Assembly (NCBI RefSeq): GCF_001411555.2
Contig: NC_049914.1
Span: 11,894,847 to 11,958,846 of the forward strand
Direction of reading: 5' to 3'
From: Juglans regia
Lineage: Eukaryota > Streptophyta > Magnoliopsida > Fagales > Juglandaceae
DNA length: 64,000 nt
Shown here piece after piece: positions 9,005 through 55,735 of this stretch. Below the pieces are notes generated by a model. It had not been told where the DNA came from, made no database searches, and was given only the letters and a program-made list of their open reading frames with translations. Each line of letters starts with the position of its first letter. Position 1 is the stretch's first letter. Both the position numbers and the translations under genes were made by a program.

Positions 9005-12000
9005 TTAATTTGACAATTCGCTCTCATCATCTGTAGATACCTCATATGATTCAACATTTTTCTCAATTGTCGCATCAACAATTTCAGCCTCAATATCTTC
9101 TCTATATAATGGAATCATCTCATATTGGCTCAAATCCACAAACAAATTTAAGGGGGGTTGACTCTCTTTGTATGCTTCTTGAGTAGAGGGGTCATCTTCT
9201 TCTTCATCTTGTCCTTCTGTCTGAAGGATAACATCATATATATTTTTTGGAGAATATTTTTGTACTACTTGCCATTGATTTCCTAACTCTAGGTCATCTA
9301 AGTAGAATATTTGAGATGTTTGAGAAGCCAAAATAAAAGGATCAACTTCATACCATTTTTTTGATGTACTAACTCTCAAAAAATATTCATCATCACGGAC
9401 TCCAGTTCAAGGATTGCTTAAATTCCACCAATCACATTTAAACAGATACACCGCAAGCTCCCCCAAATATTTCATTCCAATTATATCGACAATAACCACA
9501 TAGAAATCAATGTTTTCTCCAGTATGACTTCCTTCGACTAGGACACCACTATTTCGGATTTTCCTATAACAATCTCGATCCATTGTGTCGTACCTACTTC
9601 CTCGAGAAATACATGCAGAATATCGAGTAGTGCGTCTCGATGAGCCATGCGCCAATGCATATAGTTCATCCGATATATCGTTTGGATTATTCGCATGTAT
9701 TTGTACAACCTACATATTGAGTAAAACATATATTATATCAAAATTTAAATCAATATTTTTTTATTGGTTATTGAGTAAAGCATATGTAATGTCATTACTC
9801 GTTCTTCAAACCATTTGGAGAACTCCTCTTCATGTTTCTGGTTTATATCATTTACTCCTAATTCCTTGAGCACGTTAATATGATCACTGAAATTGATGAT
9901 TACCATAAATCTTTATATTCTTAGAATTTTTTTAAAGTAAATGAGCAAATTTAAATTAAGAAATAGTTATAACTTACTTCAAGTGGTTCTCTCTCTTAGG
10001 GCAATTGTTCAGCACGCACCACTGAACTTTCTCGAACTCTCTTCCATACAAGTCATAATCACAGACTGCACCAATTGGACGTACTTGTTGGGAAAACACA
10101 AAAAACACATTTTGTTGTCTTGCTCGGTTAACATATAAGTTTCTTTCCGACCAATCAAACCTAGTGTCAACTCTGTAGAAATATTTGGAACAGTAGGTAT
10201 AACACTCATCATCAATATATGCTTTTGCAATTGATCCTTCTGGGTGGGCCTTGTTACCCATTGTACGTTTCAACTTTCCAAGAAATGACGGTGGGTAAAT
10301 ACTTTCTACCTTACACAATATTATGACAATTTCTCATTCCATTCGATCCAAAGCTTTTACATTCAACGTCCTTGCACATAATTCTTTAAAAAATGCACTC
10401 AACTCTGTCAAAGCCACGCGCACGTCTCTTGTCAAGTATCCACAGATACCAATAGGAAAGATACTTGTAAGAAGACATGACAATCATGACTTTTTAATCC
10501 AGTTATTTTCCAATCATTTGTTCTCACATACCTTGTTAGATTCGAGGCATAACCGTCCAATAGTTTAATCTTCATTAGCCACTCACAAAATGTAACCCCT
10601 TCGTTCCTTGACAATGTATACCACCTAATCGGCATGTAGACAGACGAACCATTTTCTTGCAATTGCATTTCTTGTCTTATTCCCAACCGCTTCAGATCTT
10701 TTCTTGAGTTTAATGTATCCTTTGTTTTTCCTCCAATTGACATCAATGTTCTCAATTTGGATTTGCAAATATTTTTTTCAATATGCATAACATTAAGACT
10801 ATGCCGCAATTTTAATTTTGACCAGTACGAGAGTTTGAAAAATATACTATTATTTGTCCAATTCAACTCATTCGTAGCTCGTTTTCTCTTTCGTTATTTT
10901 TTACCAAATTCATTACAACCAACATTTATAAATTATGCAAGTACATCGTCACCAGACAAATATGGTGGAGGTTAGCCCCAGTCAACAGTTCCATCAAACA
11001 TTCTAGAATTTTCACGTCATCTATGGTCACCAGGTAAAAATCGATGATGACCCATGAAATATAATTTCTTCCCATACGTAAGCCATTCAGATTTGGTATA
11101 TTTGTTACAAATTGGACATGTCATTTTTCCCTTAGTACTCCAACCTGACAAGTTTTCATAAGTGGGAAAATCATTTATTATCCATAACACCGCAACAAGC
11201 ATCTTAAACGACTTGCCTGTTGATGAATCAAATGTGACAACCCCATTCTCCCACAAATCTTTTAATTCTGCAATCAATGACTGTAAGTGTATGTTTATAC
11301 CATTTCCCGATAATCTCGAACTTGGAATGAGCAAACTCATCATGAAATATAGATAGTACGATGACTAGTACTCATGTTTCCAAATCCATCTATTGTCAAC
11401 CCAAGTCGTACATTACACAGTTCTTCAGCAAACCATGGGTGCTCTTGATTAAATTCCTTCCACACCTGGGAGTCAACAGAATGTGACAAAATATCATCGT
11501 TCCTTACTTTGCCTGATGAGTGTCATGTCATGTCTACAGCCGTTACGTGTGACATAAATAATCGTTGTAATCTAGGTATCGATGGAAAGTGGCGTAAGAC
11601 CTTCTGCAGCACATTTTGCTTGTCCGATTTCCATCTTGATTCATGGCATACGAGGCACTCGTTCAACTGCTCATTCTCTTGCCAAAATAATATGTAGTCA
11701 TTCTTACATGCACGTATTACGTTGTAATCAAATCTGAGTTCTCGTTTCAACTTTTTTGTCTCATAGAAGTTACGATGTAAAGTATTGTCCATCGACAGTG
11801 CCTATTTGAACAATACAAGTAACATATTGATTGCCTTAATAGATAATCGACACATTGATTTTATGTGAAACAGTCATACAGTAAATGAAAACTTACTGTG
11901 TCTTCTGCATCTTGGATAAAGCTCATGCTATGAATCATTCCACAATCATGCAAAAGTGTTATGGCCACCATCATTTGAGTTTGATGTGTCCGTGTCACCT

Positions 12001-12346
12001 TCATCCATAAACATTTTCGTACTGATGTCACCTAACATCTGCTCCATATCCTCATAGTATTCATCTCCAACAACCTCTGATTGTACATCTTCATCAATCT
12101 CTTCTTCATCATGTGAAGCCTCAAATGAAGTTGGATATGGTTCCCTGTGTAAAATCCAATCAATATAACCTCTGTCAATACCTTAGACAAACAGATGCTC
12201 TCTCACCAAGTCTATCTTATGAGAACGCAAATTCCTGCATTCTATGCATGGGCATCTAATATGCCCATCACTATCGCATGTACCCAATTCGAACTCCAAG
12301 AATTTCTTAACACCTTCAACATATATATTGTAATTCTGGTCCAATC
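9005..12346 (-). pseudogene. CACTA tnp2 transposase gene, interrupted and decayed
   Basis: Domains in order on the minus strand: the transposase-associated N-terminal domain (12183-12346, ending GHIRCPCIECRNLRSHK); the tnp2 catalytic region (about 11792 to 10800, with MTCPICNK and LYFMGHHRFLPGDHR); a DUF4218-like part (10866 to 10010, with LNVMHIEKNI, VYMPIRWY and KAHPEGSIAKAYIDDE); and a DUF4216-like C-terminal part (9655 to 9005, with LFKCDWWN, WYEVDPFILASQTSQIFYL and WQVVQKYSP). Introns and several stops or shifts separate the open blocks. Its first codons lie 9.9 kb away at 22280-22315, beyond the retroelement insertion. The protein would be the DDE-type transposase that cuts the CACTACAAC ends; this copy is not functional. 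Confidence 0.85.
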
Positions 12347-14599
12347 TGTAACAACCGGGCTTTAAGCCTAGCCTGTTGGAGTTAGTCGATTGTATGAAAC
12401 CCAGCCCACAAGCGGTTAATGTGAGACCGAGCGGCGTCGTTTGGGTGAAGGGATTAAATTCCCTTTTCCGGATGCACTGTTCTTCTTCCTCGCGTTGCCT
12501 CCCCCACTGCTCTGCATTTCCGGATCTCACTCAACCGTGCGCACCAACCCACGAGTCTGGCAGTTGATTTCCATCTCTTACCACACTCAAGGTTCGGTTT
12601 CACTCACTTCTGAAAACATTTCAGTCGATTTTCCTCTCATCTTTTTTTCGATTCTTCATACATTCACCGTGCGCTCAACTCAAGGATTTAGAACTTCAAA
12701 TTTTTTTTTCCACTGCAGATTGGTTCGGCTTCTTGATCAAAGTGTGGTCGCATTCTCTCTCACTAGAGATTGCTGTGAATTTCTTTTGGGGCGTGGAGTG
12801 CAGTGAATTTCAGCGACTCATTCGAAGTGGTTTGAAGTTTTGTGTTTTCCTTTGGGGTAAGTTTCCCGAAGCTTTTGGTGGTTTTGAATAATAGGGTTGG
12901 ACTGTGAAGTTGTAATAGAGTCACTGATTTGATGGTGGTTGAGTATGATGGAATTCTTGACATTGAGGAGTACGGTTTTGGATGGATTCGTGAAATTGTT
13001 TTGGACTATTATGTGAGATTATTTAGTGTAAATTGAAGGGTGTTTTGAGTTAATTGTTTTGAATTTATTATGCAAGTCTTAAATTGTCGAATGAATAAAA
13101 TATTGATGCGGACACTGAAATTACTTTATTCGAAGGTTGGAAGTGAAGTTTGGTTTGGGGTTATGTTTTAATTATTGGAGTTGCAGTTGTTGGTTTTGGA
13201 AATAATTAAAGTTGGTTTGGTGTTAAAAGAAGGTGGTGGCTGTTTTGGATTTTAAATGCGAATGGTTTGAAGAGAGAGTTGTTCGAGTTTAATTGTTAGA
13301 TAGTTATGGAGCTGTGAAGGGACTGTTTTGATTTATTACTCAATAAATAGCAGCCTACTAGATTGGTTATTAAATGATTGATATATGCTTCTTTTTGTTT
13401 AGGTGGTGTTACTATTAGAGTTCCGGCTCAAGGTGTTGATAATACGAAGAAGTCAGGTAAGCGGGGTTCATATACTAGTTTTGCATAAAATAAATAAAAG
13501 GAGGTTTACTTTGAGAATAAATGTCTTTATTTTCTTTTTGAAAGAGATGATCTGAAAATAACTTCAGATGTTTATTCTGCATATGCATAAATTCTATATA
13601 AGAGAAAGTGTTTTTTTGTCATGACTGGTGTAGACATGAGCTAGTTTTGTGCACTTTATTTCTGAACTATGTAAAAGAGCGAATATGGAAATCTAGATGT
13701 TTTGTTATGAACAAATGAGAATATTTTGTTTATGTTTATCTCGAATATGTGAAATGATCTGAAACTTTTCAGTGTTTTGTTTTGGAATGATGTGTCAGCT
13801 GAAAACCTTGGCATGAAATTCTGACTCTGTATATGATTGTAATCGGATTTTCAATGAAATCTGTTCTGTTTCTGTTAAGACCCAGCCACGGGTATAATGG
13901 TGGTTTATAACCCTACCACGGGGGTGAAACATGGTATTGTCCCGATGTGATACTAAACGATGATATGATTATAATATTTCAGTTTAGAAATGCCAACGGA
14001 TTTTCTTTTTGGAATAAGTTTATTTTTTTCTGGAAACTTCGCTCTAATGCCTTTGTACAAAGTTTCGTGTCTGCATTTTGAAAGTAAATGTTTTGTTCTG
14101 CTTATCAAATGTTATAAATGCTCATGTTTACATGCTAGTATATGCTCTATGCTTGCTGAGTTGTTGATAACTCACCCCGTTAATCTTTATAATATTTCAG
14201 GTGACATCGATGGTTTAGCTGAGGATCAGTATTAGAGTCTATGGAGAAGATTAGCAGTGATTTGTTGTTGGGTATCTCATGATATTAGTGTTGGTGTTGG
14301 AGGTTAATTATTTTTCTTAAATTTGCTTCAATGGATTTAGACGGTTTATGGAGACTTATGTTAATGTTATATTATTTCTAGTTGTTATTTGAGACATGAA
14401 GAAGAGTTGATTTTATTTGGGATGTTGGATTGATTATTGGATAAATGAGTTTATATGGTTTATTTAATTGAAGTATTTACGTTTGATTTGAGGTTTGGAA
14501 AATATATATTCTTGAATTTGGAAGTACTCTAGCCTTATTAGAGTTGATTATCAGGTTATATGAGTTAACTCTCTGGACCCTCGGGGACGGGGCATTACA
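12347..14599 (+). repeat. Left LTR of the gypsy element
   Basis: It starts TGTAACAACCGGGC and ends CGGGGCATTACA, pairing with 19509-21820. It is 59 bp shorter than the right LTR because it has one instead of two copies of a roughly 60-bp repeat (near 13880-13945) with the phrase CCACGGGTATAATGGTGG. It contains splice-like sites AGTCAG|GTAAGC at 13456/13457 and ATATTTCAG|GTGAC at 14200/14201. Confidence 0.93.
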
Positions 14600-14601
14600 G
14601 T

Positions 14602-14613
14602 TGGTATCAGAGA
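14602..14613 (+). promoter_or_regulatory. Primer-binding site, initiator Met tRNA type
   Basis: TGGTATCAGAGA lies 2 bp after the left LTR. It matches the usual TGGTATCAGAGC complement of plant initiator Met tRNA except for its last base. Confidence 0.85.
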
Positions 14614-15008
14614 CAGGTTTGAATTCTGCATACTGTAGACCTTGAAGGTTTAGATATCTGTGGGTTCATAAGATATGGAAATTTCAATATAGGAATTGGA
14701 GGATTATAAGGATAGTCACGTGGATATTTAAGTTTGAATTCCAAGAACATTAAGATTGATTTTGATGGGATTTGAGGTTTTAGATTTGGCTGATGTTAGG
14801 AATTGAATTTGAAACTTTGAGGTTATAGATTCTAGTGATATATGTGTCTATTAAGTGGTGTCGGATTTACATAGTTATCTGATATATATATATATATATG
14901 TATATGTGTTAATATGTATATTTTATTTATCTTCTTATTTTATTCTATTTATCCGGTATTTTCGTTTTCTATTATTTTAGAACGTTTCACAGAGTTTAAA
15001 CTTTCAGG

Positions 15009-15992
15009 ATGGCTGCTCGTCGTAGAGTTCGAACTCTTGAAGATTTAAACGAAGATGACAATGGTGGGGGTTGCACGTTCGAACAATTTAATCGAACGCA
15101 TCCTCCCATATTTGATGGAAGAGGTGATGCGAACGCTGTGGAAGATTGGATACAAGACATTGAAGAAATATTTGGTGTTTTGGAGTGCACCGATCAGCAA
15201 AAAGTCAGGTTCGCAGCTTTCAAACTATCTCTAGAAGCAAAGAGATGGTTGAATTCTGAGAAAGTTATCAGGGAAACTGAGGGGACTGGGTTAATTGTTT
15301 GGGCTCAATTCAAGCAGAATTTCTTTGATCGATTTTTCCCTAAGGCTGATAGGGAAGCAAGAGCTCGTGAGTTCACTAACTTGGTGCAAGGGACCATGAC
15401 TGTGCGCCAGTATGCTGCAAGGTTTGCGGAATTATCACGTTTCGCCTCATACTTGATTCCCGATGAGGAGAAAAAGACTAGGAAGTTTGTGGATGGTTTG
15501 AACTACAGGATTTATGAACGTGTGATGATATTTCAAATTCAGAATTTTTCAGAATTAGTACACACGGCGATGCTAGTTGAGCAGAATCTCAAGAGGGGTG
15601 CTGAGTTGCAAGAACAGAGGAAGAGAGCTGCTCCACAAGGATTCCCTAATTCGAATCAAGGGCAATGGAAATGGAGAAATGAGGGGAGCAGTTCAAGTCA
15701 GAGACAGATACAAGGAAATCATACCTCTAACCCCTGTAAGTTCTGTGACCGCATACAACATGAAGAGTGCAGAAAGGAAGTGGGATCATGTTTCAAATGC
15801 GGTAAGGATGGGCATTTCACTAGAGAATGTCCATTGTTTGCGGTGAATAACAGAAGGCCCAATCCAGCTCAAAACTTTAGGCCGAATAACCAAGGCAACG
15901 ATCAGCGAAGGACTGTACCAGCACGGGTGTTTGCTTTGACACCGGGAGAAGCTGAGGACAAGGATGATGTCATCACAGGTATAATTTTTTGA
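15009..15992 (+). CDS. gag: Gypsy gag polyprotein
   Basis: The 327-residue open frame has a retrotransposon Gag domain (about residues 50-190, with VWAQFKQNFFDRFFP and RQYAARFAELSRF). A CCHC zinc knuckle, CFKCGKDGHFTREC, lies at about 262-275, followed by a basic, Asn/Gln-rich tail. Gag forms the cytoplasmic particle that packages element RNA. The frame is intact from ATG to stop. The stop lies only four codons beyond a GT at 15979 that begins a likely intron, so unspliced RNA would give Gag alone and spliced RNA would continue into protease. The start is the first ATG of the frame and fits related gag starts beginning MA/MV-A-R-R. Confidence 0.9.
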   Translation: MAARRRVRTLEDLNEDDNGGGCTFEQFNRTHPPIFDGRGDANAVEDWIQDIEEIFGVLECTDQQKVRFAAFKLSLEAKRWLNSEKVIRETEGTGLIVWAQFKQNFFDRFFPKADREARAREFTNLVQGTMTVRQYAARFAELSRFASYLIPDEEKKTRKFVDGLNYRIYERVMIFQIQNFSELVHTAMLVEQNLKRGAELQEQRKRAAPQGFPNSNQGQWKWRNEGSSSSQRQIQGNHTSNPCKFCDRIQHEECRKEVGSCFKCGKDGHFTRECPLFAVNNRRPNPAQNFRPNNQGNDQRRTVPARVFALTPGEAEDKDDVITGIIF

Positions 15993-16072
15993 CCGTCCCT
16001 TAACATTTTTTTTATGTTGAGAATTAAGGATTATTTATCTTATTATCTCTTTGGATTATATGACGTAACCAG
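15979..16072 (+). other. Putative 94-bp intron between gag and pol
   Basis: The segment begins GTATAATTTTTT and ends GACGTAACCAG, and is T-rich like plant introns. It has stops in the gag frame. Joining 15978 to 16073 completes one Gly codon and carries the gag frame straight into the protease frame without a stop. That exact match of splice sites and phase is the evidence; use of the intron is inferred. Confidence 0.6.
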
Positions 16073-19000
16073 GAATTGTTCCCTTATTCCTCAATAAGGC
16101 TATTGTTTTATTTGACTTGGGGGCTACCCACTCCTTTATTTCAATGGATTATGTTAAGTTGTGCCCCATTGTTGCTAATGAGATGGACTACAATTTGAGG
16201 GTCTTTACCCCAACTGGTGATATAGTGCCTTGTAACAAGATTATACTCAAGTGTCCAATAACTGTTAGCGGGAAGGAAATGCCAGCTAACCTGATAGTCT
16301 TTCCTATGACTGGGTTTGATGTGATTTTGGGGATGGATTGGTTAGCTTCCAGTTATGCTAGTATTGATTGTTTTAAAAGGGAAGTGGTGTTCAAGTTTCC
16401 GGAAGAAGAGGAACTTCGGTTTATGGGTTCCAGGGTGCGTACCTCTCCATCAGTTATTTCTGCTTTTCAGGTTGACAAGTTATTACGTGTTGGGTGTCAA
16501 GGGTATTTGGCCTTTGTGGTGGATGAACCAAAGGAAGAATTGAAACTTGAAGAAATTCCTATTGTTAGGGAATATCCGGAAGTTTTTCCTGAAGACTTGT
16601 CTGGATTACCGCTTGAGCGGGAGGTAAAATTTGCTATTGATTTAACCCCAGGCACGGCACCTCTTTCCAAAGCCCCTTATCTAATGGCACCATCAGAGTT
16701 AGCCGAGCTCAAAGAACAGTTGCAAGACTTATTAGACAAAGGTTTCATCAGACCTAGTGTGTCACCTTGGGGAGCTCCAGTTTTGTTTGTGAAGAAGAAG
16801 GATGGGACAATGAGGATGTGTATAGACTACAGGGAACTGAATCGAGTGACCATAAAGAATAAATATCCGTTGCCCCGCATCGATGACTTATTTGATCAGT
16901 TGCAAGGTGCGCAGGTGTTCTCAAAAATTGATCTTAGATCGGGTTATTATCAATTAAAGATCAAGGCGGAGGATGTGCCTAAGACAGCTTTCAGGATCAG
17001 GTACGGCCATTATGAATTTTTAGTCATGCCTTTTGGTTTAACCAACGCCCCAGCAGTATTTATGGACTTGATGAATCGGGTTTTTCATGAGTTTTTAGAT
17101 AAATTTATAGTGGTGTTTATTGATGATATATTAATCTACTCCAAGAGCAAAGCTGAACACGAAGACCATCTGAGACAAGTATTAGGGACACTCAGGGATA
17201 AGAAATTATTTGCCAAGTTGAAGAAGTGTGAATTTTGGCTTGAGTCTATTGCATTTTTGGGACATGTAGTCTCAAGGGATGGTATTTCAGTAGACCCCGG
17301 GAAGATTGAAGCAATAGCTAGCTGGACTCAACCAACCAATGTGCATGAAGTTAGGAGTTTCTTGGGTTTGGCTGGTTATTACCGTTGATTTATAGAAAAT
17401 TTCTCAAAAATAGTGGTCCCCCTTACCGCTCTTACTAGGAAGGATAACAAGTATGTTTGGACCGAAAAATGTGAGGAAAGCTTCCAGGAATTGAAGAAGA
17501 GATTGGTGACAGCTCCAGTTCTGACAGTCCCTAGCGAAAGAGGAGGATTTGTGGTTTATAGTGACGCTTCACGATTGGGTTTGGGGTGTGTTTTGATGCA
17601 GCATGAAAAGGTAATAGCTTATGCTTCTCAGCAATTGAAGACATATGAGCAAAATTACCCCACACATGATTTGGAGTTGGCTGCCGTTGTCTTTGCACTT
17701 AAAATATGGAGGCATTATTTATATGGTGAAAGGTGCGAAATCTACACGGACCACAAGAGTTTGAAGTACTTCTTCACCCAGAAAGAACTGAATATGAGAC
17801 AGAGAAGATGGCTCGAACTAGTCAAGGATTATGACTGCAACATTAACTAACATCTAGGCAAAGCTAATGTTGTAGCTGATGCACTTAGCAGGAAGCCAGT
17901 GGGACCAATAATTGCAATTCTTATCACTCAGCCCCACTTACTAATGAACTTGGAAAGAGCCACTATTGAAGTAGTTGTGGGTGACCAGCAGGCATTGATA
18001 GCCAGTTTAATAGTTCAACCAGCTTTGATAGACAGAATTAAGCTCGCCCAAAAAGAAGATTCTAAGTTGGCGAGATTAATCGAAGAAGTAGATAAAGGGA
18101 TCAAACCTGAGTTTAATCTTTCTGATGATGGAGTATTAAGGTTTGGAAATAGATGTTGTGTGCCAAACAGTGTTGTAATAAAAAGACTTATCCTTGAAGA
18201 AGCGCACCGCTCCCCTTACACAGTTCACCCGAGTAGTACGAAAATGTATCGAGATTTGAAAGAGTCTTTTTGGTGGGAAGGCATGAAGAGAGAGATTGCT
18301 CAATTTGTGGCACAGTGCTTAACTTGCCAACGGGTGAAAGTAGAACACCAACGACTAGCAGGGTTATTGCAACCACTTCAGATTCTAGAATGGAAATGAG
18401 AGCATATTTCTATGGACTTTGTTACAGGGCTCCCACGGACACCGACAGGACAAGATGCAATTTGGGTGATAGTTGACCGTTTGACGAAGATAGCTCATTT
18501 TGTTCCTATCAAAGTTTCTTATAAGTTGGAGAAACTAGCCGAGCTATATATACAGGAAATCGTGAAATTGCATGGGGTACTTGTGTCCATTGTGTCAGAT
18601 AGAGATCCGTGTTTCATTTCGAAATTTTGGCGAAGCTTACAAGAGGCCATGGGCACTAAGTTAAATTTCAGCACAACGTTTCACCCACAGACAGATGGTC
18701 AGTCGGAAAGGACCATTCAAATTTTGGAAGACATGTTGAGAGCATGTATGCTGGATTTTAAGGGATCTTGGATTCGACACTTGCCTTTGGTCGAGTTTGC
18801 TTATAATAACAGTTACCAGGCTAGCATTAAGATGACACCTTATGAAGCACTTTACGGTAGGAAGTGTAGATCTCCTTTATATTGGGACGAGGTGGGAGAA
18901 AGACAACTTTTGGGTCCAGAAATCATTCAGAAGACAACAAAGAAGATTGAGACCATTCGAGCTAGAATGAGAGCAGCTCAGAGTCGACAGAAAAGCTATG

Positions 19001-19440
19001 CAGATAACCGTCGTCGCCAATTAGAGTTTGAGATTGGGGACAAGGTATTCTTGAGGATTGCACCCATGAGAGGGGTTATGAGGTTTGGAAAGAAGGGTAA
19101 GTTGAGCCCTAGGTATATCGGACCATTTGAAATTCTTGATCGGATTGGACCAGTGGCTTACAGAGTAGCCCTACCACCTGCACTCTTAGGTGTACACAAT
19201 GTATTTCATGTATCTATGCTGAGGAAGTATGTACCTGACCCCACCCACGTCATCGATTACGAGCCTCTTCATTTTCAGGAAGATCTGACTTATATAGAAG
19301 AGCCGGTGCGGATTGTAGAGAGAAAAGAACAAGCGTTACTTAATCAGACTATTCCATTGGTTAAGGTGGTATGGAATAATCATGCTATCAGTGAAACCTC
19401 TTGGGAATTAGAAGAGGAAATGCAAGTCAAGTACCCATAG
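16073..19440 (+). pseudogene. pol: Gypsy pol: protease, RT, RNase H, integrase, chromodomain-like tail
   Basis: One reading frame runs from 16075 to the stop at 19438-19440, with three internal stops: TGA at 17386 (in the YYR-FIENF motif), TAA near 17848 (before HLGKANVVADALSRK) and TGA near 18397 (before HISMDFVTG). Domains: aspartic protease with [10 protein letters not shown], where family members usually have DSGA; RT with [23 protein letters not shown] and [12 protein letters not shown]; RNase H with [13 protein letters not shown] and [10 protein letters not shown]; integrase with an HHCC zinc region (H-x-C near 18210-18330, CLTCQRVK), the D,D-35-E residues in MDFVTG, SDRDPCF and [11 protein letters not shown]; and a chromodomain-like end with [10 protein letters not shown]. 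The stops replace conserved Arg, Tyr and Trp codons by single changes. Protease-to-integrase order defines Ty3/gypsy. Confidence 0.9.
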
Positions 19441-19495
19441 TTGTTCGACGACGATCCTAATAGCTTATGACAAATTCCGGGGACGGAATTTTTAT

Positions 19496-19508
19496 AAAGG
19501 GGGAAGAA
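19496..19508 (+). promoter_or_regulatory. Polypurine tract of the gypsy element
   Basis: AAAGGGGGAAGAA lies directly before the right LTR and would prime plus-strand DNA synthesis. The similar tract AAGGGGGGAAGGA precedes the right LTR at 31353. Confidence 0.85.
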
Positions 19509-21820
19509 TGTAACAACCGGGCTTTAAGCCCAGCCCATTGCAGTTAGCCGATTGTATGAAGCCCAGCCCACAAGCAGTTAATGTGAGACCGAGCGGCGTC
19601 GTTTGGGTGAAGGGATTAAATTCCCTTTTCCGGATGCACTGTTCTTCTTCCTCGCGTTGCCTCCCCCACTGCTCTGCATTTTCGGATCTCACTCAACCGT
19701 GCGCACCAACCCATGAGTCTGGCAGTTGATTTCCATCTCTTACCACACTCAAGGTTCGGTTTCACACACTTCTGAAAACATTTCAGTCGATTTTCCTCTC
19801 ATATGTTTTTCGATTCTTCATACCTTCCCCGTGTGCTCAACTCAAGGATTTAGAACTTCAAATTTTTTTTTTCCACTGCAGATTGGTTCGGCTTCTTGAA
19901 CAAAGTGTGGTCGCATTCTCTCTCACTAAAGATTGCTGTGAATTTCTTTTGGGGCATGGAGTGCAGTGAATTTCAGCGACTCATTCGAAGTGGTTTGAAG
20001 TTTTGTGTTTTCTTTTGGGGTAAGTTTGCCGAAGTTTTTGGTGGTTTTGAATAATAGGGTTGGACTGTGAAGTTGTAATAGAGTTACTGATTTGATGGTG
20101 GTTGAGTATGATGAAATTCTTGACATTGAGGAGTATGGTTTTGGATGGATTCGTGAAACTGTTTTGGACTATTATGTGAGATTATTTAGTGTAAATTGAA
20201 GGGTGTTTTGAGTTAATTGTTTTGAATTTATTATGCAAGTCTTAAATTGTCGAATGAATAAAATATTGATGCGGACACTGAAATTACTTTATTCGAAGGT
20301 TGGAAGTGAAGTTTGATTTGGGGTTATGTTTTAATTATTGGAGTTGCAGTTGTTGGTTTTGGAAATAATTATAGTTGGTTTGGTGTTAAAAGAAGGTGGT
20401 AGCTGTTTTGGATTTTAAATGCGAATGGTTTGAAGAGAGAGTTGTTCGGGTTTAATTGTTAGATAGTTATGGAGCTGTGAGGGGACTGTTTTGATTTATT
20501 ACTCAATAAATAGCAGCCTACTAGATTGGTTATTAAATGATGGATATATGCTTCTTTTTGTTTAGGTGGTGTTACTATTAGAGTTCTGACTGAAGGTGTT
20601 GATAATACGAAGAAGTCAGGTAAGCGGGTTTCATATACTAGTTTTGCATAAAATAAATAAAAGGAGGTTGACTTTGAGAATAAATGTGTTTATTTTCTTT
20701 TTGAAAGAGATGATCTGAAAACAACCTCATATGTTTATTCTGCATATGCATAAATTCTATATAAGAGAGTGTTTTTTTGTCATGACTGATGTAGACATGA
20801 GCTAGTTTTGTTCACTTTATTTCTGAACTATGTAAAAGAGCGAATATGGAAATCTAGAAGTTTTGTTATGAATAAATGAGAATATTTTGTTTATGTTTAT
20901 CTCGAACATGTAAAATGATCTGAAACTTTTCAGTGTTTTGTTTTGGAATGATGTGTCATCTGAAAACCTTGGCATGAAGTTCTGACTCTGTATATGATTG
21001 TAATCAGATTTTCGATGAAATCTGTTCTATTTCTGTTAAGGCGCAGCCACAGGTATAATGGTGGTTTATAACCCTACCACGGGGTGAAACATGGAATATG
21101 GCCCAGCCACGGGTATAATGGTGGTTTATAACCCTACCACGGGGATTGAACATGGTATTGTCCCGATGTGATACTAAACGATGATATGATTATAATGTTT
21201 CAGTTTAGAAATGCCAACGGATTTTCTTTTTGGAATAAGTTTATTTTTTTCATGAAACTTCGCTCTAATGCCTTTGTACAAAGTTTCGTGTCTGCATTTT
21301 GAAAGTAAATACTTTGTTCTGCTTATCAAATGTTATAAATGCTTATGTTTACATGCTAGTATATGCTCTATGCTTGCTGAATTGTTGATAACTCACCCCG
21401 TTAATCTTCATAATATTTCAGATGACATCGATGGTTCAGCTGAGGATCTGTATTAGAGTCTATGGAGAAGATTAGCAGTGATTTATTGTTGGGTATCTCA
21501 TGATATTAGTGTTGGTGTTGGAGGTTAATTATTTTTTTTAAATTTGCTTCAATGGATTTAGACGGTTTATGAAGACTTATGTTAATGTTATATTATTTCT
21601 AGTTGTTATTTGAGACATGAAGAAGAGTTGATTTTATTCGGGATGTTGGATTGATTATTGGATAAATGAGTTTATATGGTTTATTTAATTGAAGTATTTA
21701 CGTTTGATTTGAGGCTTGGAAAATATATATTCTTGAATTTGGAAGTACTCTAGCCTTGTTAGAGTTGATTATCAGGTTATATGAGTTAACTCTCCGAACC
21801 CTCGGGGACGGGGCGTTACA
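19509..21820 (+). repeat. Right LTR of the gypsy element
   Basis: It starts TGTAACAACCGGGC and ends CGGGGCGTTACA. Two tandem copies of a roughly 60-bp unit lie at about 21040-21160 (phrase ATAACCCTACCACGGGG), against one in the left LTR. The LTRs otherwise match closely over their whole length, which points to a fairly recent insertion. Confidence 0.93.
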
Positions 21821-21833
21821 GTCTGATACCATT

Positions 21834-47979: not shown

Positions 47980-50785
47980 TATAACATCCCGTCCCTGAGA
48001 GTTCGGGGAGTTAACTCATGTTACCTAATAATCAACTCAACCACTGCTAATATACCTCCAAAAAGCTCTAAATCAAACGTAAACACTTCAAATTTAAATA
48101 ATCACACAAACTCATTTTTCAAATCCTCGATATACTCAATTCTTCAAAAATGCCACGTCAACAGAACAAAATGAAATTTCTTAACAAAAAATCTTCGATA
48201 CTTATCGAAACTTTCTATTCTTAATCCACCATTCTTAAGACATCTCACCCAATACTTCATAGTATTGGTCCCGAGCTGAAATATTCAAAATCATCTGAAA
48301 ATATTAGAGATAAAAGGGTGAGTTACCAATAACTCAGTAAGTAGATAACATAAACTAGTATGTAAATATGAGCATTTATGAATCTTTGAAATGCTGAACA
48401 AAATATTTTCTCTCAGAATGCAGAATAAAAAAACTTGTTTTCAGAATGCAAAATCGAAACATATTACCAAAAAAATATGAGCGAAAATTTCAGAAAACAT
48501 TCTTATTCAAAATTTTCTTGGCATAGCATAACTGAAACATCTATCAGAACAAAATTTCATGTTTAACCCCCGTGGTAGGGCTTTGCATTATGCGGAAAGC
48601 CAAACAGAACATAAATCACCATGAATATCAAGAAGATTGCTCTCAGAACAGAAAACCACTATTATATCCCGTAGTGGACCAGAGATCAGTATTGTATCCC
48701 ATGACAGGGCCAAAGGTCACTATTGTATCCAGCGATAGGGCCAGAGGTCACAATTATATCTCATGATAGGGCCAAAAGTCATTACTGCATCCCGTGACAA
48801 GGCCAGAGGTCTCTATTATATCTCGTGACAAGGCCAAAGGTCACTATTGTATCCCATGACAGAATCAGAACCAGAGTCAGAACACAATCAGAATCAAAGT
48901 CAGAACAGAATTATAACGTTATGCCAAAGGTTTTTCAGATGCCAAATCATTCCAAAACAGAGTACTGAACAAAATCAGATCATTTCACATTATCTAAAAC
49001 AGATTCAGAATATCTTCATGTCACATGCAAAAATTATCAGTTTTCATATTCACTCATATTTTTCTAAGTTCAATAACAGAATGCCAAAAATAAGCTCATG
49101 TCTACACCAGTCATGCCAGAAAATTTTTTATTTTTACACAAAATCTCATGAGTAATGCAGAACAAATAACTCAGATCGTTTAACATTTCTTTTCATAGCA
49201 CAACATGCATATTTTCAAAATTGACCTCAATCCATTTTATTTTTATGCAAAGTCTAGTATAGAAACCCCGCTTACTTGAACTTCTTAGCTTTTCATAAAT
49301 TTTCCTCAAAATTGCCGAACAACTATAAATCATCATCTATAAAATAATTATGAAATTTTCATAAATTTCCAATCAAACACGTATCTCAATATTCAAACCT
49401 GAAATGCTAAAAGAACATATTTTCTTAAAATTCTAAAATTACCATAACCCTAAAATATCGTCACTTTCCAAATTCATTGGTATCCACTTAAATGAATCTG
49501 TACCGAAGAAAATAATCGAATAAATATTATGATAAATACGGTACTCAAAGAATGCTAGTGTTTTAAAATACTAAAGTACCCACAACGTATTATAGATTAA
49601 TGGAATACTATGGCTACTTAAAATCCCATAAAATATGGCCAACTTAAAAACGAATTCAATTAAAAACTAAATAGTTAAAATTAACAATATAATCATTTTT
49701 TATGTATAATAAAAACCAAGCCCATTAATTAAACATAACCAATTAAACCAAGCCCATTGAAACAAAAACCCATTAAACTAAATCCAGGTAACAATATATC
49801 TGAAAACATCATACTAAGGGGCAACATGTAAAAACACTTAAAAACAAGTTTGAGGTGTTCTACGGAAAAATCAAAGACCAAAGGCCTGATGGCATTCGTT
49901 AATATTTTCAAAGAGTGCAAAGTTTCTACTTGTTTCTAGGAAGACATAAAACACAACAAAAAGGAAATGGAAACCAAAAGAGAAGGAGGTGCAACAGAGG
50001 CTCACCGTGAGGGAAATAGGTGGCGGCAGAGCTGGCAAGGCAGGGGGGATCGTTGTTCTGAAAATGGCGCACTAAGAGAGAGAAATAGATGAGAGAGAGA
50101 GAATGGAGAGAAGGAAAGAGAGCACAAATCAGAGAGGAAGAGAGAGAGAGAGAGAGAGAGAACGTGATCTAACGAAGAGAGCCTGGGAAGTGCGAGGCTG
50201 GAAGAAGAAAGAGGAGGGAAAGAAGGAAGAACAAAAAGATAGAAAGAGAAGGAAAGGGAAAGGGGGTGAAAAGTGAAACAAAAAGGAAATGGAGAAGCAA
50301 TGACGCACAGGAGAAAGAAGGAGAAGAAAAGAAGAGATGAAGAAGCCCTAAGGGCTGGACCAAATGATGCCGTTTGGGGGATTTAGTGGGTTGGGTTGAA
50401 GGTTCATGGGTTGGGCTGGGGTCCGAAGGGGCTGTGCCTAAAGTAAATTAAAACACACTCAAACAAGTCCAGTCCGAAAATAGAAGAGTCCAACAAAAGA
50501 AAAGGGCACAATAAAATAAAAAAGAGTCAAATAAAAACACTACAACTCAATATTAATAAAATACAATAATTAAAGTCCAAGAATAAAATTATTCATTAAA
50601 GAAAAGAGCAATTTAAATGCAAACAATAATTAATATCAAGAAACACATCAAAATAAATTTTGCAACTTAAAATTTATAAAATAAATCCAACGAGAAATCT
50701 GATAAATTTAAAACAAGAGAACCAATATTTAAATTAATTAAAATAATCATTCAATTAAAAATACACTAAAATACAGGATATCACA
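47980..50785 (-). repeat. 3' LTR of the gag-only element
   Basis: On the minus strand it starts TGTGATATCCTG and ends GGGACGGGATGTTATA. It carries a six-copy ~32-bp minisatellite (about 48650-48860) and, on the minus strand, the splice-like donor AAGTAAGCGGGG (about 49265-49277) and acceptor TTTTCAGATGATTTTGA (about 48285-48302). Confidence 0.9.
48650..48862. repeat. ~32-bp minisatellite in the LTR
   Basis: About six imperfect copies of a unit with TATCCCGTGACAGGGCCAGA and GGTCACTATTG. The partner LTR has only about three to four copies (53625-53735), so copy number changed after insertion or during replication. Confidence 0.85.
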
Positions 50786-50800
50786 TCCTCCCCCTTTAAA
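50786..50800 (-). promoter_or_regulatory. Polypurine tract of the gag-only element
   Basis: The plus strand reads TCCTCCCCCTTTAAA, i.e. TTTAAAGGGGGAGGA on the minus strand, directly before the 3' LTR. Confidence 0.8.
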
Positions 50801-50882
50801 AAAAATTTCATCATCGAAATTTGCTTAGCTAGCTGCTGCTACTTCCAATGGGCTCCGCTGCTCACTCTGTATTGAGTTGAAT

Positions 50883-51800
50883 TTAGGTGTACACTGCGTT
50901 GTGTTGGTTCTTGCCTCGTGCCGCCAAATCATTCCTTTGAGGCGGGTTGGAGTTCATGCTCTCATCTAGTTGCCTTGGACAATCTCTGACTAGGTGGTTA
51001 TGCTTCCCACATCGAAAACACCGTCCAGTTCTCCTTCTGCAATCCCCAAAGTGTACTACGCAGCATAACTTGTAGGAGTTATTCTGTTGATTGTCTTGCA
51101 CCTGTCTCTGGCCTGAGTTGCTACCTTTATTTCTCTTCTTCCAAGGCCCTCGACCCATACTAGAGGATCCATGAGGAGTAGCTCTCCTTCTCTATTCCTG
51201 CAACTCGGCGCTTCTCTTAAGATTCTGCTCCACTAGCATCGCTTTATGTACCAAGTCTGAAAAGTTTTGAATTTGTAGAACCATAACCTGTTTGTAGATT
51301 CTGTGATTTAAACCTTCTTCAAACCTCCGAGTTTTCTTCTCCTCATCGGGAATCAAATATGGGACGAAGTGCGATAACTCTGCAAATTTTGCAGCATACT
51401 AGCATACCGTCTTGGTCCCTTGCACCAAGCTAGTAAACTCTCAGGCTCTAGCTTCCCGGTCTACTTTCGGAAAGAAGTGATCGAAGAAGTTTTGCTTAAA
51501 GTAAGGCCAGCTCACTACTCCAGTTCTATCAGCTTCTCTTATGGCTTTCTCAGAGTTCCACCATCTTTTCGCTTCTCCGATCAATTTAAAAGCTGCAAGT
51601 CAAACTTTCTGTTGATCGATGCACTCCAAAACACAGAATATCTCTTCGATGTCTTGAATCCAATCCTCAGCTGCATTGGAATCGCCTCTTCCATCAAAGG
51701 TGGGTGGATGAGTGCGATTAAATTGCTCGAACGTGCAACTCCCCTCATTGTTGTTTTCGTTCAAATCTTCCAGATTTCGTACTCAACGACGAGCAACCAT
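50883..51800 (-). pseudogene. gag: Broken gag gene of the gag-only element
   Basis: On the minus strand an ATG at 51800 opens MVARR and is followed at once by a TGA. The region then follows the gag of the gypsy element at 15009 in order: a CTFEQFNRTHPP-like start (about 51740), the Gag domain, and LVEQNLKRSAELQE-like sequence (about 51200). Its last block (51158-50883) is open and carries the CCHC zinc knuckle CFRCGKHNHLVRDC. Further in-frame stops replace Gln codons, for example TAG near 51400 and near 51195. Nothing of protease, RT or integrase follows before the polypurine tract. It is clearly related to, but diverged from, the gag at 15009. Confidence 0.8.
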
Positions 51801-52280
51801 CTTGAGTTCTTAAACTCGGTTAAACATTCTAAGGTAAGAAAATAAAATATGTATAAACAAAATATAAATACTAGTTAAAATATTTAAAACAAGTTAAAGA
51901 TAAATAAATGAATCAATAAAATCTTGAACTTGTTTTATCCTTTCTTAGCCATATCTTTAACCAAGTCATATAGTCTTTCCTACCATCTATAATTGTTAAC
52001 CCGAGATGGCTTTAAACTCCTGTACATCTTTAGAATCTAAACTACAAAGATCTAAACCTTAAATCTTATAAAGATTATCTCTTATAATCCACAAAGTAAG
52101 CTTGTCGGATCTAAAATCCCTAAATCTCAAAACTCAATCATAAAGTTTGCAAAATCAAAAATCTTACATATCCACATAATCATCTCTTATTCTATACAAA
52201 TCTACACCTCAAATCTGAAGTTTCTTCCTAAACCCACGGATATCCAAAACTCAAATGTTTATAATTTGCAGAACCTCAAA

Positions 52281-52297
52281 CCTTAGCTCTGATACCA
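52281..52297 (-). promoter_or_regulatory. Primer-binding site of the gag-only element
   Basis: On the minus strand TGGTATCAGAGCTAAGG follows the 5' LTR after 2 bp, matching initiator Met tRNA over 12 bases. Confidence 0.85.
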
Positions 52298-52299
52298 AC

Positions 52300-55200
52300 T
52301 ATAATGTCTCGTCCCCGAGGGGCCGGAGAGTTAACTCGTGTTACCTGATAATCAACTCCAACACTGCTAATATACTTCCAAAAGCTCCAAATCAAATGTA
52401 AACACTTCCAATTTAAATAATCACAGAAACTCATTTATCAAATCCTCGATATACTCAATTCTTCAAAAATGTCACATCATCAGAACACAATGAAATTTCT
52501 TAACAAAAAATCGTCGATACTTATTGAAACTTTCTATTCTTAATCCACCAATCTTAAGACATCTAACCTAATGCTTCACAGTCTTGATTAGGGCTGGGCT
52601 CCGACTCCGACGGAGTCGGAGTGCTCGTTTCCGACCTTCGACTCCGACAAGAGTCGGAGCCAAATTGGAGCTCCGACTTCGACTCCGAACTGGAGTCGGA
52701 GTCCGACTCCGATCGGAGGTCGGAGCTCCGACCTCCTATCGGAGCTCCGACCTCCTATAGGAGCTCCGACATAAGATCGGAGCTCGACGTGCGCTCGACG
52801 TAGCGCTCGAGCGAAACTCTTTCAGAGAGGTTCACTCGACTTCCGCTCGACTTTCGCTCGAGCGAACCTCTCTGGAAGAGGTTCGCTCGACTTCCGTTGG
52901 ACCTGTCGCTCGAGCAGAAATCTTCCAGAGAGGTTCGCTTGACTTGCGCTCGACATGTCGCTCGAGCCAATGTTCAATACAACGTGTGCTCGACTTGCGC
53001 TCGACACCTCGCTCGAGCGCAAGTGTTCAGTAAAAAAAATTTCGGAGTCAGAATCGGAGCTTCTTGGAGCTTCGACTCCGACTCCGACTCCGACTCCGAA
53101 TAGATATTCGGAGCTACTCCAAATTCCGACTCCGAATTCCGATGACTCCGACGAAGTCGGAGTCGGAGTCGGAGCGGAAGTCGGACGGAGTCAGAATTTT
53201 CGGAATTTTGCACACCCCTAGTCTTGATTCCCAGCTAAAATATCTAAAATCATCTGAAAATATTGGAGATAAGGGGGTGTGTTTTCTACAACTTAGTAAG
53301 CAGAGAACATATACTAGTATGTAAACATGAGAATTTATCAGACTTTGAAATGCTGAACAAAATATTTTCTCTCAGAATGCAGAATTAGAAAACTTGTTTT
53401 CAGAATGCAAAATTATAACATATTACCAAAAATATATGAGCTAAACTTTAAGAAAACATTCTTATTCAAAATTTCTTTGGCATAGCATAACTGAAACATC
53501 ATATCAGAACAGAATTCCATATTTAATCCCTGTGGTAGGGTTGTGCATTTTGTGGAAAGCCAAGCAGAACATAAATCACCATGAATATCAAGGCGATTGC
53601 ACTCAGAACAGAAAACCACTATTATATCCCGTGGTGGGCCAGAGTTCACTATTGTATCCCGTGACAAGACCAGAGGTCACTAGCGTATCCCATGATAGGG
53701 CTAGAGGTCACTATTATATCCCGTGACAGGGCAACATCTCGGAGTAAAACAGAATCGAAATCAGAGTCAGAACAAAATCAGAAATTTGAGTTAGAACAGA
53801 ATCTTAACCAGCGTCAGAACAAAGTCAAAATCAGAATCAGAACAAAATCAGAACATTATGCCAAAGGTTTTTCAGATGCCGAATCATTCCAAAACAGAGT
53901 CCTGAACAAAATCAGATTATTTCACATTATCCAAAAAGATTCAAAATATCTTCATGTCACATGCAAAAATTATCAATTTTCATATACGCTCATATTTTTT
54001 TGAGTTCAAAAATAGAATACAAAAAATAAGCTCATGTCTACACCAGTCATGCCAGAAAATCTTTTATTCTTATACAGAATCTCATGAGTAATGCTGAACA
54101 AATAACTGAGATCGTTTAACATTTATTTTCATAGCACAACATGCACATTTTCAAAATTGACCTCAGTCCATTTTATTTTTATGCAAAATCTAGTAAATGA
54201 ACCCCGCTTACCTAGACTTTTTAGCTTTTCATAAATTTTCCTCAAAATTGCTGAACGACTAAAAATAGTCACCTATAAAATAATCACGAAATTTTCATAA
54301 ATTTCCGACCAAACACGTATTTCAATATTCAAACTTGAAATGCTAAAATAACCTATTTTCTTAAAATTCTAAAATTATCATAACCCTAAAATATCGTCAC
54401 TTTCCAAATTCATTGGTATCCACGTAAACGAATCTCTACCGAAGAAAATAATCGAATAAATATTATGATAAATACGGTACTCAAAGAATGATGGTGTTGT
54501 AAAATACAAAAGTACCCACAACGTATTATAGATTAATGGAATATTATGGCTACTTAAAAATCCCATAAAATAAGGCCAACTTAAAAACGAGCTCAATTAA
54601 AAAATAAATAGTTCAAATTATCATTATAATCATTTTTTATGTATAATAAAAACCAAGTCCATTCATTAAACATAACCAATTAAACCAAGCCCATTAAAAC
54701 ATAAACCCACTAAACCATATCCACGTAACAGTATATATGAAAACATCATACAACAAAATGTGAAAACACTTAAAAACAAGTTTGAGGTGTTTTACGGAAA
54801 AATCAGAGACCAAAGGCATGATGGCATTTTCATAATTACTAGGAATATCATGAACATAAAGTTTAAAACTATATGTTAATATTTTCAAAGAGTGCAAAGT
54901 TTCTAGGAAGACATAAAACACAACAAAAAGGAAATGGAACCAAAAGAGAAGGAGATGCGATGGAGGCTCACCATGAGGGAAAGTGGTGGTGGCAGAGCTG
55001 GGCGAGAGATGGGGGATCGTTGTCCTGACAATGGCACACTGAGAGAGAGAAATAGATGAGAGAGAGAGAGAACGAAGAGAAGGAAAGAGAGAGAGAGAGA
55101 GAGAGAACGTGATCTGAGCGAGAGAGCCTGAGAGGTGTGGGGCTGGAAGAAGAAAGATGAGGGAAAGAAGGAAGAACGAAAAGAAAGAAAGAGAAGGAAA

Positions 55201-55730
55201 GGAAAAGGGGGTGAAAAGTGAAACTGAAAAGAAATGGAGAAGCAACGACATGCAAGAGAAAGAAGGAGAAGAAAAGAAGAGATGGAGAAGCCCTAATTGA
55301 GGGACCAAACGGTGCCGTTTGGGGGATTTAGTGGGTTGGGTTGAAGGCTCATGGGTTGGGCTGGAGACCTATTGGGTTGGGCCCAAACAAAATTAAAACA
55401 CACTCAAACAAGCCCACTCCGAAAATAGAAGAGTCCAACAAAAGAAAAGGGCACAACAAAAAAAAAAAAAAAGCCAAATAAAAACACTACAACTCAATAT
55501 TAATAAAATACAATAATTAAAGTCCAACAATAAAATTATTCATTAAAGCAAAGAGCAATTTAAATGCAAACAATAATTAATATTAAGAAGCACATCAAAA
55601 TAAATTTCAACTTAAAATTTAGAAAATAAATCCAACTAGAAATCAGATAAATTTAAAACAAGAGAACCAATATTTAAATTAATTAAAATAATCATTCAAT
55701 TAAAAATATACTAAAATACGGGATATTACA
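52300..55730 (-). repeat. 5' LTR of the gag-only element, with nested MITE
   Basis: It matches 47980-50785, on the minus strand starting TGTAATATCCCG at 55730, and is interrupted by the hAT-type MITE at 52589-53220. It holds (GA)n tracts near 55030-55110 and a short version of the 32-bp minisatellite (53625-53735). Confidence 0.9.
52581..53228. mobile_element. hAT-type MITE, 632 bp, CpG-rich internal repeats
   Basis: 52589-53220 starts TAGGGCTGGGC and ends GCACACCCCTA, which are imperfect inverted termini. The 8-bp duplication GTCTTGAT at 52581-52588 and 53221-53228 fits the hAT superfamily. The partner LTR lacks the insert. Inside are dense GGAGTCGGAGTC/GACTCCGACTCC repeats near both ends and a centre of repeated GCTCGAGCGA and TTCGCTCGACTTGCGCTCGA phrases. 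There is no transposase. Confidence 0.88.
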
Positions 55731-55735
55731 TGTCA

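Follow-up and report, generated by a model that had tools for sequence, protein, structure and literature searches.

LTR retrotransposons require Gag in excess of Pol. In many plant elements a single open reading frame (ORF) encodes the two. In the parts of the cited papers on which we draw here, most LTR element groups are described as having one ORF, while Ogre and Bianca have two ORFs with a gap between them (PMC6317226), and plant LTR elements are generally without introns, Ogre and EVADE being notable exceptions (PMC12786077). Ogre, a Ty3/gypsy element of the Tat lineage in pea and Medicago, carries a second RNase H between RNase H and integrase, and its gap is an intron that is removed from part of the transcripts, making a whole polyprotein possible (PMC6317226). 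The initial annotation of the walnut DNA studied here had likewise pointed to introns near this place in Ogre/Tat-lineage elements. The walnut element is like Ogre in that a putative intron lies between two ORFs and, judging from DNA, would be spliced from part of the transcripts. It differs in place and lineage: Ogre is not a chromovirus and its gap, 274 bp on average, separates gag-protease from reverse transcriptase, whereas the walnut segment is about 94 nt long and lies between gag and protease in an element of a Tekay-like lineage.

Other described systems resemble the walnut element in part. Bianca (Ty1/copia) also has two ORFs with a gap, 172 bp on average, but belongs to the copia superfamily, and splicing is not stated in the portion of PMC6317226 consulted. 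BARE1 of barley (Ty1/copia) has a 104-nt U-rich facultative intron near the end of gag that controls Gag versus Gag-Pol (PMC3735527). EVADE (AtCopia93) uses alternative splicing to produce, in addition to its full-length messenger, a separate short one for Gag (PMC12786077). The logic of both differs from that proposed here: in BARE1 the spliced RNA gives Gag only, and in EVADE, again of the copia superfamily, splicing makes the Gag-only messenger, whereas in walnut the unspliced RNA would be the Gag-only form. CRR is a centromeric chromovirus of rice. It is a Gypsy element with spliced transcripts, but splicing removes rt and creates two ORFs, and the part of the source used here describes no intron separating gag from pol (PMC3735527); the same paper mentions Bagy2 and Ogre beside BARE1 and CRR. 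Chromoviruses of Beta have a continuous gag-pol ORF (PMC3605345), and sunflower elements have spliced isoforms, with no Tekay among the expressed ones in the portion consulted (PMC7730604). Splicing in plant LTR elements is already known, and what appears to be new is a Tekay-like element with its intron between gag and protease; our search of open-licence papers, available in part, returned no report of such an intron in a Tekay-type element, which is not proof of absence.

We propose, with a probability that we put at roughly 0.87, that a Tekay-like Ty3/gypsy lineage in walnut gained a spliceosomal intron within the gag-protease junction, where it would regulate the production of Gag versus Gag-Pol.

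Structure of the walnut element

The window, the whole stretch of 64,000 nt of Juglans regia DNA analysed here, holds the element on its plus strand. Self-alignment delimits a 5′ LTR at 12347..14599 (TGTAACAACC...GGGGCATTACA) and a 3′ LTR at 19509..21820, which differ at 75 of 2251 sites (K2P 0.034). No matching target-site duplication was found between the outer flanks, 12337-12346 and 21821-21830, and the window copy may therefore be a recombinant. Sequence features mark a primer-binding-site region at 14600..14620 (GTTGGTATCAGAGAC), which we take to be of the initiator tRNA-Met type, and a polypurine tract region at 19491..19508, 5′ of the 3′ LTR. In its unspliced reading the gag ORF (15009..15992, ending at TGA 15990-15992) encodes 327 aa with capsid and a CCHC knuckle; the gag ORFs of P0001, P0002 and P0003 are equal to it in length and end three residues past the same Gly. 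Pol follows in four pieces: protease (Pfam RVP_2) and reverse transcriptase at 16073..17388, ending at TGA 17386-17388; RNase H (Pfam) at 17389..17850, ending at TAA 17848-17850; the H2C2 zinc-binding part of integrase (Pfam) at 17851..18399, ending at TGA 18397-18399; and the integrase core, a weak match under the Pfam cut-off, with a C-terminal SH3-like part at 18400..19440. With pol stops at 17386, 17848 and 18397, the window copy is not intact, a point absent from the initial annotation.

The LTR pair, gag and the order protease-reverse transcriptase-RNase H-integrase are those of a Ty3/gypsy element, and the nearest proteins are from Juglans. The Tekay label, which the initial annotation also used, is our assumption, worded as "Tekay-like" and not as membership, the trees reported here being built from gag and from copy DNA. 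The continuous gag-pol ORF that is usual, if not strictly defining, for Tekay/Del chromoviruses is absent, its place being taken by two ORFs 94 nt apart. No Pfam match to a chromodomain was found in 18400-19437 at E up to 1, a search that may miss divergent domains. RNase H gave one Pfam stretch in 17389-17847, and no second RNase H was found in 17851-19437 at E up to 0.001. As a second RNase H defines Ogre-type (Tat) elements, the walnut element would work like Ogre without being a member of that group.

Beside the 5′ LTR, on the minus strand at 9005-12530, lie ORFs that contain DUF4218 and a transposase-associated domain; they are probably the remains of a DNA transposon, presumably of the CACTA type.

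The 94-nt segment between gag and protease

A phase-1 GT...AG segment of 94 nt at 15979..16072, the putative intron, splits Gly codon 324. Its borders are exact, with G at 15978, GTATAA...AACCAG up to 16072 and GA from 16073, giving a donor CAG/GTATAA at 15976..15984 and an acceptor ACCAG/GA at 16068..16074; a short CAGG repeat stands at both borders. Without splicing, the gag frame meets its stop three codons past the Gly codon, the pol frame opens no earlier than 16069 (after TAA 16066-16068), and the two frames do not overlap. We scanned five donors in 15900-15992 with four acceptors up to 16149 and obtained 17 GT...AG pairs around the gap that are 60 nt or longer, four of which lead into the pol frame; only the pair 15979/16072 does so without residue loss. 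The segment is 46.8% T and 73.4% A+T, neither of which is reached by any other 94-nt stretch in 15009-19440 outside the insert, and within the 64-kb window no other matches to it were found beyond short chance matches.

Relatives with a single ORF read straight through the VITG/I junction in which the split Gly sits. We built a junction profile from 18 read-through relatives, one a Malania gene model and 17 with jgi as their source, the latter presumably gene calls without introns, and searched the gag and pol pieces against it separately. The gag piece ended at column 57 and the pol piece started at column 59. The split Gly therefore fills column 58, and the joined reading has neither an extra nor a missing residue. 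In joined relatives such as P0031, the splice site falls within the Pfam RVP_2 match. The initial annotation is borne out on these points: it had placed a T-rich GT...AG segment exactly between gag and pol, had unspliced Gag ending just past the donor, and had expected removal to complete the Gly codon and carry gag into the protease frame.

With its borders kept and the frame restored by its removal, the segment appears to behave like a GT-AG spliceosomal intron. GTATAA is not the strongest plant consensus for a donor, and this weaker site fits partial splicing and, equally, weak splicing. We hypothesize that full-length RNA keeping the intron would serve as genome and as a Gag-only messenger, because its frame stops just past the junction, while removal of the intron would allow Gag-Pol to be made in one frame, and partial splicing would set the ratio of Gag to Gag-Pol. 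Removal by the host spliceosome in present-day RNA, the ratio and its regulatory use are what we infer from sequence.

Alternatively, unspliced RNA could yield Gag-Pol through frameshifting, read-through of the stop or internal initiation, with the GT and AG incidental. According to the part of PMC3735527 consulted, retroviruses and retrotransposons commonly shift frame between gag and pol. A further point for these routes is that the gag frame of the window copy, beyond TGA 15990, is open to 16094 and so overlaps the pol frame. However, no single shift joins the two frames of the window copy, gag ending at 15992 and pol opening at 16069, and among copies the insert length runs through all phases, so that no fixed shift serves the family. 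Internal initiation at an ATG would lose the active site, since the first ATG of the pol frame (16144) lies past the protease Asp (16114). We consider any of these routes very unlikely and favor splicing of the segment.

Filled copies and one empty copy in the walnut genome

A DNA search of the J. regia genome gave 105 candidates, of which 40 were scored, all matching at 91-100%; the set consists of 39 fetched copies and the window copy, spread over many contigs. The donor GT is present in 40/40 copies (GTATAA in 39) and the acceptor AG in 36/40, with AA in three of the remaining copies and AT in one, a loss of AG that counts against the intron reading. The insert varies from 91 to 99 nt with all phases present, departing from the 94 nt of the window in 36 copies and by a number not divisible by three in 28. 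In the flanks, any length difference was seen in two of the 40 copies over 219 nt of gag and in four over 258 nt of pol, three of the latter not divisible by three. Reading past the Gly without splicing, we found a stop after three residues in 35 copies and after 12-16 residues in four; in one copy the reading continues for 37 residues, beyond the insert and in the wrong frame.

The initial annotation had also suggested checking whether GT, AG and phase are conserved across the family while the interior drifts. The first part holds for GT in every copy and for AG in most, but the drift is uneven: mean diversity among the 40 copies is 0.092 for the whole insert, 0.143 for its T-rich 5′ half and 0.055 for its 3′ half. 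Values at codon positions 1, 2 and 3 are 0.041, 0.048 and 0.102 in gag and 0.038, 0.036 and 0.060 in pol. The value of the 3′ half is near those of gag positions 1 and 2. A 3′ half more conserved than gag third positions (0.055 versus 0.102) is not needed by a pure spacer and counts against the intron reading. This half, 16022-16070 in the window, possibly contains a splicing or packaging signal.

Decay, or insertion of a small transposon, might also have split gag from pol in one dead copy, with no role for splicing. The window copy does have three further stops in pol, and the CAGG repeat bounds the insert as a target-site duplication would. Nevertheless, at least 40 copies, distributed over many contigs, have the insert, with GT in 40/40, which refutes a one-copy accident, and the same codon is filled in the distant copies L050, L051, L052, L058, L061 and L065, where, read by eye, the donor is GT in all but L065 (TT) and the acceptor is AG in all but L052 (AA). 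An insert shared by at least 40 copies and by distant ones has been propagated by active elements, and it is missing, exactly to the base, from a nested copy described next. We give decay or chance insertion hardly any credence and retain the reading of a propagated intron.

Joined sites were sought with a 23-letter degenerate pattern of the predicted spliced junction, allowing up to 2 mismatches, which matched 46 times compared to four for the reversed control. Judged by their letters, the donor side of filled copies accounts for 22 of the 46. Twenty matches became loci, all compared with the window, and 16 of these were read at the junction. Zero mismatches were found for two, L048 and L049. 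In L049 (G000:C4:10903599), 970 nt of gag (94.4%) run straight into 1313 nt of pol (94.8%), with the segment absent to the base. The copy has LTR sequence on both sides, including an 841-nt piece of 3′ LTR that is 95.0% identical to the 5′ LTR; the remainder of the 3′ LTR was not found at this locus. L049 is the one exactly empty site of the window's family found among the 20 loci compared from the 46 pattern matches.

Both trees place L049 inside the intron-bearing family. In the gag protein tree it groups with the window copy (99/95). A DNA tree built on the exon flanks of 44 copies has L049 as its sole empty row, in a clade of 22 rows whose other 21 are filled copies (98/93). Its nearest rows in the DNA tree, L012 and L016 (90/68), differ from those in the protein tree. 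As L049 is nested and lacks exactly the segment, we interpret it as derived, first by splicing and then by reverse transcription, and not as the ancestral state. Reverse transcription of a spliced RNA is the simplest reading of this copy, which suggests that the segment really is spliced out, although deletion of precisely the stretch between the two border CAGG repeats could have had the same result. Under the splicing reading, it would be mostly unspliced RNA that is reverse transcribed, because one empty copy was found against 40 filled copies scored, and the intron would be kept in new copies.

Wider relatives and a possible second family

Intron presence is not uniform in the wider clade, and this counts against the intron reading. 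L048, L056, L064 and L066, which are decayed and more distant, have gag contiguous with pol and carry no insert. They lie near family II, within a 31-row wider clade (100/99) that also holds intron-bearing rows. These copies may never have had the intron or may have lost it long ago. Related intact copies without the segment had been named in the initial annotation as grounds for rejecting an intron; copies without it do exist, L049 being nested and exact and reading as spliced and then reverse transcribed, and the other four being more distant and decayed.

We also examined 72 proteins that reach 50% gag identity or more. Most are from Juglans, the set includes P0090 from Carya as well as P0295, and all are annotations or predictions. 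Sixteen run into protease exactly at the junction, and 14 end 1-25 residues past the junction codon, which is Gly in 13 and Val in P0024. Another 13 go on with other sequence past the junction, and 29 stop short of the site or escaped the motif script, for example P0020, a Gag-only protein with a long unrelated tail. Records joined at the site may reflect introns removed by annotators, but any of them could equally be a copy without an intron, so they carry little weight alone. We dropped a Gly followed by a codon starting with A in Gag-only proteins as evidence of a donor, as single-ORF relatives also have Thr or Ile there.

Earlier gag trees, made without the genomic loci and leaving out P0045, P0051 and P0095 as too short, placed 11 rows with intron-like tails in one 20-row clade (99/99). 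The P0047 family falls outside the window's clade in the gag trees, and a single clade of the two is disfavoured by gag (AU p 0.006, in a test where the group was named after the first tree and long branches are present). As far as the junction, the ORF P0095 shares 95.7% identity with P0047; it departs right after VVTG, while the gene model P0047 runs on into protease. L054, which belongs to the P0047 family by tree, also departs at the junction and has GA, not GT, at the donor place. This second Juglans family (P0095, P0047, L054) seems to have a different insert at the same Gly codon. Splice-controlled Gag/Gag-Pol production may have arisen more than once at this Gly, in the window's clade and again in the P0047 family, but we regard this as doubtful, with the odds of a second gain lowered by the missing GT in L054. 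Old intron loss in relatives between the two clades may fit as well. If repeated gain is true, a proto-splice site at the conserved junction would be a recurrent landing place for introns, and introns would turn single-ORF elements into two-messenger elements.

Elements with Gag alone were observed in the window and among relatives of the walnut element. On the minus strand at 48260-55731 lies an element whose LTRs are 85.7% alike and in which only gag is recognised internally, with five stops. Its Gag match ends near residue 303, as in P0009, P0017, P0065 and P0072, which suggests a propagated Gag-only family without protease, one that we take to be TR-GAG-like. In the Juglans gene models P0012 and P0015, Gag is followed by metallothionein-like sequence from the same place, representing a captured host exon, exon trapping by a donor of the window's type, or an annotation error. 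Scans of viral contigs found no relatives.

The segment might be a true intron and still be a neutral passenger, either with no regulation of Gag versus Gag-Pol or in elements that borrow Pol from others. Gag-only relatives such as the minus-strand element above, P0009 and P0017 would be in line with this, as would stops in the visible gag part of nine of the 40 copies and in the visible pol part of four. On the other hand, 36 of 40 copies keep the length of downstream pol across the 258 nt compared, and only removal of the insert leads into Pol in frame with zero residue loss. We allow the passenger reading a small chance, slightly above that of decay or of translation from unspliced RNA, and prefer an intron that would regulate Gag versus Gag-Pol. 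Closely related filled copies and an exactly empty copy in one genome make splicing, the Gag/Gag-Pol ratio and the choice of packaged RNA testable with ordinary RNA data, and would offer an example of intron gain, within a conserved protease domain, that can be dated, with loss probably via reverse transcription.
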